From Gemmatimonas phototrophica (GTDB lineage: Bacteria; Gemmatimonadota; Gemmatimonadetes; Gemmatimonadales; Gemmatimonadaceae): 64,000 bases of DNA. Positions within the stretch are counted from its first letter, which is position 1. Every line of letters begins with the position of its first letter. The notes beneath the pieces were generated by a model. The model saw nothing but the letters and a program-made list of their open reading frames with translations. It did no database searches and had not been told where the DNA came from. The translations under genes were made by a program, and so were the position numbers. Positions 6,614 through 11,047 of the stretch are shown piece by piece. The stretch is taken from contig CAMBNV010000003.1 of the NCBI GenBank assembly GCA_945869195.1, positions 1 through 64,000 of the forward strand, in the 5' to 3' direction.

Positions 6614-7264
6614 TTAAGGAGTCGCCGACGGACAGAGGTCGACGAGGACGCAGTCATGGCACTTCGGCTTACGAGCATCGCAGGTGCGGCGCCCGTGCCC
6701 GATCATCAGGTGGGCGAGCTGCGCCCAGGTGTCTCGTTCGAAGAGCGGTAGTAAGGCCTGCTCGATCCGCACGGCATCGGTCTCTTTCGTCAGCCCGAAG
6801 CGCGCCGACAGGCGCGCGACGTGGGTGTCGACCACAATGCCCTCGTTCAGCCCGAAGGCATTGCCGAGGACGACGTTAGCCGTCTTGCGGCCGATACCGG
6901 GGAGGCTGACGAGTTCGTCCATCGTGCGTGGGAGCTGGCCGCCATGTTCACTGTGTAGCATGCGGGCGAGGCCCTGGATCGACTTCGCCTTGTTGCGAAA
7001 GAAGCCGGTGCTCCTGACCACCTCTTCGATCTCGTCCCTCGGGGCCGCCGCGAGCGCCGCCGCGTCGGGCCAGCGCCGAAACAACTCGGGGGTCACCAGG
7101 TTCACACGTTTGTCGGTGCACTGCGCCGAGAGCACGGTGGCGACCGCGAGCTCGAACGGGTTGCGATGCGCGAGCTCGCAGTGGGCGTCGGGATATGCCA
7201 CGGCGAGGCGGCGCTGGATCTCGCGGGCGTGGTCACGCAGCGCGCCGCCCCGCAGTCGTTTCAT
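6614..7264 (-). CDS. nth: Endonuclease III (DNA glycosylase/AP lyase)
   Basis: Base-excision repair enzyme that removes oxidised pyrimidines and cleaves AP sites. The helix-hairpin-helix LPGIGRKTANVVLG carries the catalytic Lys, and VVDTHVARL carries the catalytic Asp. A [4Fe-4S] cluster motif C-x6-C-x2-C-x5-C is seen at the C-terminus (CDARKPKCHDCVLVDLC). Length (216 residues from ATG 7264) is typical. The track's start at 7279 overlaps polX by 4 nt; the ATG at 7264, directly after the PolX stop, is equally plausible. It lies head to tail after polX, giving a two-gene repair unit. Confidence 0.95.
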   Translation of the reverse strand: MKRLRGGALRDHAREIQRRLAVAYPDAHCELAHRNPFELAVATVLSAQCTDKRVNLVTPELFRRWPDAAALAAAPRDEIEEVVRSTGFFRNKAKSIQGLARMLHSEHGGQLPRTMDELVSLPGIGRKTANVVLGNAFGLNEGIVVDTHVARLSARFGLTKETDAVRIEQALLPLFERDTWAQLAHLMIGHGRRTCDARKPKCHDCVLVDLCPSATP

Positions 7265-7275
7265 GGGGCGAGCGT

Positions 7276-9006
7276 TCACTGGCGCGCGCGCGCGCGTCGC
7301 CGGCGCGTCGCAAACTCCACGAACGCGTCGGCGCCGCGCGTGTTGATCACGTCGGCGGCGCCGAGCCAGCCTTTGCGCGCCATGCCGATCCCCAGCGCCA
7401 TGTTGTCGAGCCCAGCGACCGAGTGCGCATCGGGGCCGATCTCGATCTGCGCCCCATGCCGGCGGGCCGAGCGTGCGAGGCGCCAGTCGATGTCGAGTCG
7501 GTGCGGGTCGGCATTGAGCTCGATCGCGACGCCGAGCTCGCCGGCGCGGCGCATCACGGCCTCCATGTCGATCGCGAACGGCTCGCGGGTGAGCAGGAGA
7601 CGGCCGGTCGGGTGTCCGAGGATCGCCATGTGCGGATCTTCGAGCGCCTTGAGCACGCGGTCAGTCATCTGCCGCTCGTTCATTCCCATCCGCGAGTGGA
7701 CCGAGGCAATCACATAGTCGAAGCGGTCGAGCACCTCGACCGGATAGTCGATGCGACCACAGGGCAGGATGTCGGCTTCGACGCCCTTGAGCAGGCGAAA
7801 ATCGGTGAAGCTCGCGTTAATCGCGTCGATCTCCTCGTGCTGTCGTTGGAGCGACTCGACCGTAAGGCCACCGGAGTAGAAGGCCGACTGCGAGTGATCG
7901 CTGATGCCGACGTAGCTCCAGCCGCGTTGCCGCGCCGCTGCCGCGAGCTCCGCGATGGTCGCGCCGCCATCGGAGTACTGCGAGTGACAGTGCAGCACGC
8001 CCTGGATGTCCGGCAGTTCGATCAGGTGCGGCAGCGAGCCCTGAGCCGCGGCTTCTGATTCCCCGAGCCCCTCGCGGAGCTCCGGTGTGAGCCACGGAAG
8101 GCCAACCGCCGCATAGAGCGCGGGTTCGTCGGCGAGCTCGACGACCGAGCCGTCGCCGCGACGGAGCTGATGCGCCCCGAGGTTCAGTCCGCGTACCGCG
8201 GCGCGGGCGACGAGCTCCTGCACATGATCCTCGGAGCCGGTGGCGCGACACCAGGTGACCACGAACTCGTCGACCGGTACGCATTGCAGGATGAGACGCA
8301 CGCCATCGTCGTAGCGGATCGTCACCGCGCGGGTGCCGCTGCCGACGGAGTCGCGGACGCCGGGCGCGTGGGCGAGCGCGGCGGCGACCGCCTCGGGGTC
8401 GCGGACACAGGCGGCGACGATCTCGACCTCTCGCACCGTTTCGCAGTGGCGGCGAACGGCGCCGGCGATCTCTGCGCGCACCACTCCGGCTTGTCGCCGC
8501 ACCGACGCCAGTAGGCGCTCGGCCTCGGCGCGGCCGTGTGGGTAGAGCACCTGCGCACCGCTCTCCTTGAGCCAGGCGATGCCGCGCAGCACCTGCTCGG
8601 TTGACCGCGCGCCGAAGCGCGGTAGCTTCGTCAGTCGCCCGTCACGCGCGGCGTCCTCGAGCTCCTGGAGCGTGTCGATGCCGAGCCCTTCGTGGATGCG
8701 GCGGATGCGCGACGGCCCGAGTCCGGGAATGCGCAGCATCTCGAACAGACCCTCCGGCGTCGACTCGCGGAGTCGGTCGAGCAGCGCGGACTCTCCGGTC
8801 TCCTGGATGTCCTCGAGAACGTCGATCACCTCGGGCGCGAAGCGGCGCTTGTCGCGCCGGAGCAGCGCGGCGACCGGCTGGGCCTCGGCAGCGGCGAGGG
8901 CCCGTGCCGCATCGGCGTACGGCGCCGGGACGGCCGGATCCTCTCCCTGCAACTCAAGCAGGGCCACGATCTCGTGGAGGAGGTGGGCGACCGTGCGGGA
9001 ATCCAT
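7276..9006 (-). CDS. polX: DNA polymerase/3'-5' exonuclease PolX, with degenerate polymerase site
   Basis: Family X repair protein of 576 residues, the usual length. Order: helix-hairpin-helix region (LRIPGLGPSRIRRIHEGLGI, about 91-110), Pol-beta-like palm (about 180-310) and PHP phosphoesterase (about 335-570). The PHP ligands are all present: HCHSQYSDGG, GISDHS, KGVEADIL, VHSRMGMNE, GHPTGR, ELNADPHRLD, GPDAHS. The palm is not normal: where PolX carries the DxD metal pair this protein has E193-V-E195 (VREVEIVAAC), and the third Asp strand reads VRLILQCVP without Asp. The exonuclease/AP-endonuclease half is thus probably active while polymerisation is doubtful. Followed by nth. Confidence 0.9.
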   Translation of the reverse strand: MDSRTVAHLLHEIVALLELQGEDPAVPAPYADAARALAAAEAQPVAALLRRDKRRFAPEVIDVLEDIQETGESALLDRLRESTPEGLFEMLRIPGLGPSRIRRIHEGLGIDTLQELEDAARDGRLTKLPRFGARSTEQVLRGIAWLKESGAQVLYPHGRAEAERLLASVRRQAGVVRAEIAGAVRRHCETVREVEIVAACVRDPEAVAAALAHAPGVRDSVGSGTRAVTIRYDDGVRLILQCVPVDEFVVTWCRATGSEDHVQELVARAAVRGLNLGAHQLRRGDGSVVELADEPALYAAVGLPWLTPELREGLGESEAAAQGSLPHLIELPDIQGVLHCHSQYSDGGATIAELAAAARQRGWSYVGISDHSQSAFYSGGLTVESLQRQHEEIDAINASFTDFRLLKGVEADILPCGRIDYPVEVLDRFDYVIASVHSRMGMNERQMTDRVLKALEDPHMAILGHPTGRLLLTREPFAIDMEAVMRRAGELGVAIELNADPHRLDIDWRLARSARRHGAQIEIGPDAHSVAGLDNMALGIGMARKGWLGAADVINTRGADAFVEFATRRRRARARQ

Positions 9007-9080: not shown

Positions 9081-9980
9081 CTACTCCTCGACCAGGTAGG
9101 CGGTGGCTCCAAGGAAGAGCCGAATGGCGGCGAAGAGCGCCTCCGGTTGTTCCACATACGGCACATGGCCGCAGTCGTCCAGCCAGACGCGCTGCGCCGA
9201 CAGCGCGTCTGCCGCCGCTTCGGCCGAGGCCAGAGGGATCGGATCCTGCCTCCCATGCACGACCAACGCGGGGACGCGAAGATCACGCAGCGCTGGGACG
9301 AGGTCGAACGCGCCGAGTGACTCCCAGACCGACTGCTGCACGCGACCGGTCACGCGGAATGGTGTGAGGTCGCGGGCGCGCCTCGGGTCGGCAAAGTACC
9401 CTGCGACGCTGAGCTCGAAGGTGCGCTGCCGGTACGCCGTCGGGTCGGAGTCGCGCAGTCCGCTCGAGGCGAGCTCGTCGCGCAGCGCGGCGGCGCCACC
9501 GCTCGCCTGCCTCCGCGCGAACTCGGTTTCGAACTCGTCACGAAAGGCGCGCGACACCGGTGCCGGGTCCAGCAGCACCATTCGCGAGGGCACCGGACCG
9601 GCGCCCCCCGCGTTGGCTTCGATCGCGTAGAGCATCGCGAGCAGCGCTCCCCACGAATAGCCCACCAGCGAGACCGGCCCCGGCGCGAGTTCGGCGAGCA
9701 CCGCCGTGAGGTCCTCGACGTGCGTGCGCCAGGTGATCGGCGCCCGGTCGTCGGTCTTGGACCGCCCGCCACCGCGTTGGTCGTAGAAGAGGCAGGTTCG
9801 GTCCTCGGCGAGCGCGAGCAGCTGGGGCAACAGATAGTCGTGATGCGCCCCAGGACCGCCGTGGAGGACGACGAGCGTGCCGCGGGGTGCGTGGGGCGCA
9901 TAGCGGCACCAGTAGAGTGGTAGCGCCGTCGTTGTCGTGAGGCCGCTCGCGCGCGGCGCTCGTATTCTCGCGTTGATCAA
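9081..9980 (-). CDS. Alpha/beta hydrolase, proline iminopeptidase-like
   Basis: Cytoplasmic serine hydrolase of about 299 residues. Oxyanion-hole motif HGGPGAHHDY, nucleophile elbow GYSWG (Ser), acid HGRQDPI (Asp) and terminal CGHVPYVEQP (His) complete the triad. The HGGPG box and DQRGGGRS are characteristic of the S33 prolyl aminopeptidase group, but haloperoxidase-like esterases share them. The ORF track start (10019) overlaps the M42 gene by 43 nt; TTG 9980 overlaps that gene's stop in a TTGA and is the economical choice, implying translational coupling to the M42 peptidase. Two peptidase genes in tandem suggest peptide catabolism. Confidence 0.85.
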   Translation of the reverse strand: MINARIRAPRASGLTTTTALPLYWCRYAPHAPRGTLVVLHGGPGAHHDYLLPQLLALAEDRTCLFYDQRGGGRSKTDDRAPITWRTHVEDLTAVLAELAPGPVSLVGYSWGALLAMLYAIEANAGGAGPVPSRMVLLDPAPVSRAFRDEFETEFARRQASGGAAALRDELASSGLRDSDPTAYRQRTFELSVAGYFADPRRARDLTPFRVTGRVQQSVWESLGAFDLVPALRDLRVPALVVHGRQDPIPLASAEAAADALSAQRVWLDDCGHVPYVEQPEALFAAIRLFLGATAYLVEE

Positions 9981-11047
9981 CGCGCCGTGAAGTCGGTCGC
10001 GACCGTCACGGCTTTGCACGAGGCTGCGATGAGGGTCGCCGCGTGGTCGAGATCGATCAGACTGACCATCTCGTTGGGCGAGTGCATGTAGCGGTTGGGC
10101 ACCGAGAGCAGTGCCGTCGCGACGCCGCGCCGCGCGAGATGGATCGCGTCGGCGTCGGTGCTCGTCTCGCGCCCTGCCGCGTGCAGCGTGAAGGGGATTC
10201 GCAGCAGCTCGGCGGCGTCACGCAGGATCTTGAAGGCGACGGGCGAGACCACCGAGCCGCGCGTGAGTACTGGCCCGCTGCCGAGGCTGGAGTCCCCGAG
10301 CTCTTTCTTCTCGACGCCGGGGTGATCGGTCGCGAAGGTGACATCCACGACGATGGCCATCGCGGGATCAATGCGCTCGCCCGCGACCCGAGCACCGCCG
10401 CCATGATAGGCGATCTCTTCCTGCGTGGTGGCCACGGCCACCACGCGCGCCTCACCTGGCGCGGCCGCGTAGCGGCGCAGCGCCTCGAGCACGACAAAAG
10501 CGCCGATCCGGTCGTCGATTGAGCGCGACACGATCCGATCGTTCGGGAAGTCGAGCGTGCGCGAGTCGATCACCCCGGCGTCACCGATCGACAACCGCGC
10601 CTCGGCCTGGGCGCGGGTCGCGGCGCCGATGTCGACCCACAGGTCGGTCATCTTCGTCGCTTTCTCGCGGTCCTCAACCTTGATCAGGTGAATCGGCTTC
10701 TTGCCGACGGCGCCGAGCACGTCGCCGTCACGGCCGAGGAAGCGAATGCGCTGGGCAACGAGCACCTGCGGGTCCCACCCGCCGATCGGCGCGAGGTAGA
10801 TGTACCCATCGTCGTCGATGTAGGTGATGATCACGCCAATCTCGTCGATATGACCCGCGAGCATGATCGTCGGTTCACCGGTCGGATTGACGATGGCCAT
10901 CGAGTTGCCGTGCACATCGGACTGTACCTCGGCGGCGAAGGTGCTCGCCTCGTCGCGCCAGACCTTGGCCGCGGCCGACTCGTAGCCTGAGGGGCCGGGC
11001 GTGTCGAGCAATGATTTTAGAAAAGTGATGGCGGCGGGCTTTAACAT
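9977..11047 (-). CDS. M42 family metallopeptidase (tetrahedral aminopeptidase type)
   Basis: Dinuclear zinc aminopeptidase, 356 residues, typical for M42. Metal and catalytic segments are seen in order: AGHIDEIGVIITYID (His, Asp), SRSIDDRIGAFVVLEAL (bridging Asp), TTQEEIAYHGG (Glu base and Glu ligand), VVDVTFATDHPG (Asp) and PNRYMHSPNEMVSL (His). No signal peptide, so cytoplasmic; relatives form large oligomers that finish peptide breakdown. It is followed by the alpha/beta hydrolase with a TTGA overlap and preceded by the BtuF-like gene after 10 nt. Confidence 0.93.
   Translation of the reverse strand: MLKPAAITFLKSLLDTPGPSGYESAAAKVWRDEASTFAAEVQSDVHGNSMAIVNPTGEPTIMLAGHIDEIGVIITYIDDDGYIYLAPIGGWDPQVLVAQRIRFLGRDGDVLGAVGKKPIHLIKVEDREKATKMTDLWVDIGAATRAQAEARLSIGDAGVIDSRTLDFPNDRIVSRSIDDRIGAFVVLEALRRYAAAPGEARVVAVATTQEEIAYHGGGARVAGERIDPAMAIVVDVTFATDHPGVEKKELGDSSLGSGPVLTRGSVVSPVAFKILRDAAELLRIPFTLHAAGRETSTDADAIHLARRGVATALLSVPNRYMHSPNEMVSLIDLDHAATLIAASCKAVTVATDFTAR

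Follow-up and report, generated by a model that had tools for sequence, protein, structure and literature searches.

The window analysed here, a 64,000-nucleotide stretch of Gemmatimonas phototrophica DNA (contig CAMBNV010000003.1), encodes a noncanonical PolX that, judged by its residues, has very probably lost the ability to add nucleotides and would work on DNA 3′ ends through its Mn2+-dependent PHP nuclease. Noncanonical PolX proteins were defined in 2022 by Prostova et al. and make up 27.5% of prokaryotic PolX (PMC9226535), a picture with which a 2026 survey agrees (PMC12926913). The window protein belongs by sequence to this known class, and the core idea is not new. The addition made here is a whole lineage of Gemmatimonadota PolX, linked to the endonuclease III gene nth, with about ten or more separate losses of the polymerase site. 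Gemmatimonadota are unnamed in the main texts of both studies, and the supplementary tables of the 2022 paper may list some; in the literature collection searched, no paper turned up on PolX in an endonuclease III neighbourhood or on PolX in Gemmatimonadota.

The two active sites of the window PolX

The polX gene (7276..9006, minus strand) encodes a protein of 576 residues, in which profile, alignment and model evidence identifies an 8-kDa domain, helix-hairpin-helix, palm, fingers and PHP domain. The NCBIfam profile NF006375 (PRK08609 PolX) matches it over the whole length of the model (E 2e-118), with a score of 396.5 bits that falls a little below the cut-off of 426, and Pfam detects the pol-beta thumb, PHP and HHH_5. 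In phmmer searches, residues 3-570 align with T. thermophilus PolX (3AU2/3B0Y) at E 2e-98, and D. radiodurans PolX, which is 33% identical, is found at E 3e-77. These two proteins are also the best structural matches of an AlphaFold2 model built with 27 relatives (mean pLDDT 91; TM 0.76 to 3AU6). A Pol-beta core followed by PHP, with homology over the full length, places the protein in bacterial PolX (PolX1: 8-kDa domain, Pol-beta core, PHP). Its N-terminal 8-kDa domain (8773..9006, minus strand) is degenerate; the NPF-[R/K]-x-RAY segment and the first helix-hairpin-helix are gone.

The catalytic triad of the polymerase is altered at all three positions. An earlier note on this DNA, made from the letters alone, had reported E-V-E at residues 193-195 and no Asp in the third strand, VRLILQCVP; both readings are correct, as are the coordinates given there for the gene. 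E193-V-E195 (8422..8430, minus strand) replaces the first two catalytic Asp residues, D198 and D200 of T. thermophilus PolX, and I239 (8290..8292, minus strand) replaces the third, D240. The codons on the minus strand are GAG for E193 (8428-8430), GAG for E195 (8422-8424) and ATC for I239 (8290-8292). These assignments are unambiguous because the palm strands that bear the triad align without a gap. With an EEI triad in place of the three acidic metal ligands of canonical PolX, the window protein is by sequence no canonical polymerase.

More of the polymerase site is gone than the earlier note had seen. GAVRR (residues 182-186; 8449..8463, minus strand) stands where canonical enzymes have GSxRR, so that the phosphate-binding Ser is Ala (S180→A), and RATGSEDHV (residues 254-262; 8221..8247, minus strand) replaces Y[F/L]TGSKxH[N/S], which reads YLTGSKAHS in T. 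thermophilus. The equivalents of the steric-gate YF (Y→R, F→A), the Lys (K→E) and Asn279 (N→V) are thereby lost; the nucleotide-site roles of the gate, Lys and Asn279 are taken from PMC9226535. The palm itself is not shortened, as the spacing from GxxRR to TG is 76 residues in the window PolX; T. thermophilus PolX has 75 there, and D. radiodurans PolX 67. The fingers likewise show no deletion: positions 4-63 of the 63 in Pfam DNA_pol_B_thumb are covered, and the alignment with T. thermophilus PolX has no large gap.

Two other explanations of the missing triad were considered and rejected. A replacement acidic triad nearby is disfavoured by the gap-free palm strands and by the model, which places I239 within palm strand three and puts the closest pair of acidic residues, D233/D234, in the preceding hairpin turn; in the modelled fold, no substitute triad is apparent. 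Against a sequencing or assembly error, the third Asp is missing from all 15 genus-level loci.

The nuclease site, by comparison with B. subtilis PolX, is kept. In the PHP domain (residues 335-570; 7297..8004, minus strand), all nine metal ligands are present (H339, H341, D346, H371, E410, H437, H465, D526 and H528, in the same numbering as cited for B. subtilis PolX; PMC6616362), bearing out the earlier claim that every PHP metal motif survives. Five of six DNA-path residues are also in place, namely R469, R474, N498, R503 and K545, for which B. subtilis mutants show a need in the nuclease activities (PMC6616362). The exception is F440, which is Met here and F, L or M across 12 genus loci. 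Since mutation of F440 to Ala impaired all PHP activities of B. subtilis PolX (PMC6616362), the AP-endonuclease activity of the window PolX may be weak. The B. subtilis PHP domain acts on blocked 3′ ends (PMC6616362).

An nth-linked PolX lineage in Gemmatimonadota

A search of 395 genomes of the phylum detected PolX in 299, and the other 96 gave no match at E ≤ 1e-20. We read 120 of the phylum's PolX loci together with 80 named loci from many phyla and built trees with FastTree and with a quick IQ-TREE search under LG+G4, excluding the motif columns from both. The phylum holds two main kinds of PolX. Canonical proteins carry DDD and YFTGSKxHN, and none of the 20 read adjoins nth. The second kind comprises 117 nth-linked loci, mostly from metagenome-assembled genomes and with some genomes represented twice, which form a single clade with 99% support in both trees. 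One further pair (L099/L100), with the triad RVE, is not linked to nth and falls outside this lineage.

Within the nth-linked lineage the triad is all-acidic in 45 members and lost in 72. Because regain of three Asp residues is unlikely, losses only were counted: the 200-row tree has 12 of them and the second tree 14, figures that drop to 9 and 10, respectively, when restricted to strongly supported branches. Ordinary parsimony, applied to the 200-row tree, counted 13 triad-state changes. These sequence trees indicate about ten or more independent decays of the polymerase site. The nine PHP ligands and R469, R474, N498, R503 and K545 are invariant in all 117 loci. The palm is relaxed by comparison: at similar PHP identity its conservation is 0.32, versus 0.43 in canonical PolX and 0.51 in canonical PolX of Gemmatimonadota.

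The GS serine follows the triad, being kept in 45 of 45 triad-intact members versus 5 of 72 triad-lost ones. Loss of the triad and loss of the Ser coincide in 6.7 of 8 independent tree pairs on average and never run in opposite directions (p 0.016), whereas the control position 254 shows no such tie to triad state on the tree. This coupling suggests that the triad-intact members probably still catalyse something. Their least expected feature, and that of the whole analysis, is that DDD and GSxRR are retained (e.g. L015, L023, L056, L061) while the normal nucleotide gate is gone (Y→R/W, F→A, Asn279 equivalent→V/L/C/W) and palm conservation reaches only 0.35, again versus 0.43 and 0.51. A tentative and rather doubtful explanation is that these ~45 proteins, whose acidic triad, GS-Ser and RR core are evidently under joint selection and whose YF..K..N has become RA/WA..A..V, represent a third state: active nucleotidyl transferases whose choice of substrate has shifted, for instance to ribonucleotides or to one-nucleotide repair after Nth. 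That activity would then have been given up on about ten or more occasions, the window PolX being one of the cases in which the nuclease alone is left.

In the genus-level group of 15 loci, the triads are EEI, EEV, EEQ, DEQ, EEM, EEL or DDQ. The third position is thus I, V, Q, M or L and never Asp, which indicates that it is under no constraint. The earlier note had asked whether ExE is clade-wide in Gemmatimonadota; alignment shows that it is confined to the genus level, where 12 of the 15 loci carry it. By this sequence comparison, ExE arose late, after the loss of the third Asp, which neighbouring genera with DDH, DDN and DDT lack as well. In three loci of a neighbouring genus (L013, L017 and L019), which have lost the third Asp alone (DDH, DDN), much of the N-terminal 8-kDa domain is seemingly missing, with matches starting at query residue 53-58. 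In another genome of the window's own genus (G171), a 65-residue ORF between the hydrolase gene and nth (L209:2216-2413, minus strand) fuses in frame ~14 residues from the PolX N terminus with ~50 from its C terminus; this polX deletion scar may be real or an assembly effect.

Gene neighbourhood and a possible role in repair

The gene nth (6614..7279, minus strand) lies directly downstream of polX, as the earlier note had observed, and overlaps the polX stop by 4 bp. Its product matches TIGR01083 above the cut-off (248 bits) and has the features of endonuclease III, an HhH-GPD protein: GRKTA with the catalytic Lys, VDTH with the catalytic Asp, and the 4Fe-4S cysteines C-x6-C-x2-C-x5-C. In 117 of 117 lineage loci, nth likewise follows polX directly on one strand. 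On the upstream side, an alpha/beta-hydrolase gene (9081..10019, minus strand), proline iminopeptidase-like in profile searches, occupies a conserved position beside polX in at least 91 of the 117 loci, a lower bound set by short flanks. In most of the genomes checked that have no polX, or have an unlinked canonical one instead, the hydrolase gene and nth are still neighbours. The PolX-Nth pairing put forward in the earlier note is half supported: it stands as a constant adjacency of the lineage, which extends to one Acidobacteria and one Myxococcota genome, and as a sign of joint function it is tempered by the conserved hydrolase and by the persistence of nth without polX.

Outside Gemmatimonadota, polX adjoins nth in L144 (Acidobacteria), L155 (Myxococcota) and L178 (Hydrogenedentes). 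The PolX proteins of the first two have a full canonical polymerase site and no hydrolase neighbour, and that of L178 has the triad NND. Such adjacency to canonical PolX in other phyla points to a pairing that predates loss of the polymerase site.

No second PolX, such as a canonical one able to supply polymerase activity, was found in the window genome, where the window PolX is the sole copy. Xth was likewise not found in this genome, and two Nfo (endonuclease IV) genes were (C4:131405-132220 and C6:161907-162698). AP-endonuclease work is therefore not left to PolX alone, and a role as sole AP endonuclease, considered on account of the missing Xth, was rejected. Xth was found in 8 of the 17 genus genomes, and most of the remainder carry the second Nfo type.

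Loss of the triad and the dNTP pocket, the relaxed palm, the invariant PHP site and the Deinococcus precedent (PMC9226535) together lend good support to the repair nuclease without polymerase activity that had been proposed from the window alone. For the window PolX we infer an absence of polymerase activity, a nuclease activity and, more tentatively, a partnership with Nth, which is plausible. The PHP domain would act as a 3′-5′ exonuclease, as a 3′-phosphodiesterase/phosphatase and possibly as an AP endonuclease, and the catalytically dead Pol-beta core may serve as a DNA-binding platform. Beta-elimination by Nth, its lyase step, leaves a blocked 3′ end. From known enzymology, the PHP site could clean this end to a 3′-OH, with another polymerase filling the gap. 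We give an even chance to the idea that the window PolX and the co-encoded Nth cooperate in base excision repair. Three findings, along with the Met at F440, weigh against the repair-nuclease reading as a whole: polX is dispensable, as seen from the genomes without a match, among them the genus member with the 65-residue scar; two Nfo could already do AP and 3′-end cleaning; and the nth adjacency belongs to a larger conserved neighbourhood.

The most serious competitor, to which we give somewhat less than an even chance, accepts a polymerase-dead PHP nuclease that trims 3′ ends generally and has no special tie to Nth, hydrolase, polX and nth being inherited as a block. The frequent presence of the hydrolase gene, which has no known repair role, and its persistence beside nth without a linked polX fit this account. 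The overlap or near overlap of polX and nth on one strand argues for a closer tie, as do the pairs without a hydrolase in Acidobacteria and Myxococcota and the absence of nth beside all 20 canonical, unlinked PolX read from the same phylum. The idea that polX is merely decaying, with no selected function left, can point to repeated whole-gene loss, to the scar that an in-frame internal deletion has left in one genus member and to the degenerate 8-kDa domain and palm; it is nevertheless very unlikely, given a 576-codon frame that is intact in the window, as are those of 11 further loci of the genus-level group (74-88% identity), and 14 PHP catalytic and DNA-binding residues that do not vary in the lineage.

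Equally improbable is a weak polymerase or nucleotidyl transfer activity kept through Glu193/Glu195 and Mn2+. Glu does occur, rarely, in triads that Prostova et al. count as canonical (PMC9226535), and G182, R185, R186, T256, G257 and H261 are still conserved in triad-lost members. However, structure explains these residues equally well, the third ligand is Ile, none of the dNTP-site elements Ser, steric gate, Lys and Asn is retained, and the D. radiodurans enzyme is inactive although its triad contains two Glu (PMC9226535). A function in NHEJ end processing, as proposed for other noncanonical PolX, is more improbable still. Ku/LigD are enriched in genomes with noncanonical PolX (PMC9226535), but a PF02735 search, which finds B. 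subtilis Ku, detected no Ku in the window genome or in the 16 other genomes of the genus, so that the published link would not apply here; a divergent Ku missed by this profile would reopen the case. A repair nuclease, possibly working with Nth, remains our preferred reading.

Noncanonical PolX have so far been characterised mainly in Deinococcus and Bacteroidetes. Within a single operon context, the nth-linked lineage presents close relatives in a natural series that runs from triad intact through one ligand lost and all degraded to gene deleted. It allows one to ask what the polymerase half of PolX does, and whether selection keeps the nuclease.

Comparison with known PolX proteins

The window PolX shows the features by which noncanonical PolX are recognised: a triad substituted by a non-acidic residue (third Asp to Ile, the first two being acidic Glu), substitutions in the dNTP site and an intact PHP site. 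The palm and fingers deletions of many noncanonical PolX, which are not required, are both absent, and the association with Ku/LigD, frequent and not defining, does not extend to this genus. Two Deinococcus proteins are the closest characterised precedents, the PolX of D. radiodurans with the triad AEE and that of D. gobiensis with ARE; both have no polymerase activity and a strong 3′-5′ exonuclease (PMC9226535). Like these proteins (D. radiodurans, PDB 2W9M), the window PolX has lost the triad, has a degraded dNTP site and keeps the PHP ligands and the domain order; unlike them, it has EEI, a palm that is not shortened, linkage to nth and no Ku in its genome. Noncanonical PolX have one main phylogenetic cluster (Bacteroidetes, Deinococcus), though membership of it is not required; on the tree, D. 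radiodurans PolX lies near but outside the nth-linked lineage, with weak branches. Triad-intact members are nested within that lineage, which implies a loss separate from that in Deinococcus.

With the canonical PolX of T. thermophilus (3AU2) and B. subtilis, the window protein shares fold, domain order, PHP ligands and DNA-binding residues, whereas its polymerase triad and dNTP pocket are gone. The actinobacterial PolX-like proteins without a polymerase region (PMC12926913) resemble it in keeping PHP, giving up the polymerase and reducing the N-terminal domain; in the window PolX, however, the polymerase core persists as a fold. Also close are the triad-intact, nth-linked PolX of other Gemmatimonadota (e.g. 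L015, L023, L056), which belong to the same lineage, have the same neighbourhood and carry the same, unusual RATG/WATG gate motif, but retain the DDD triad and the GS-Ser that the window PolX has lost.
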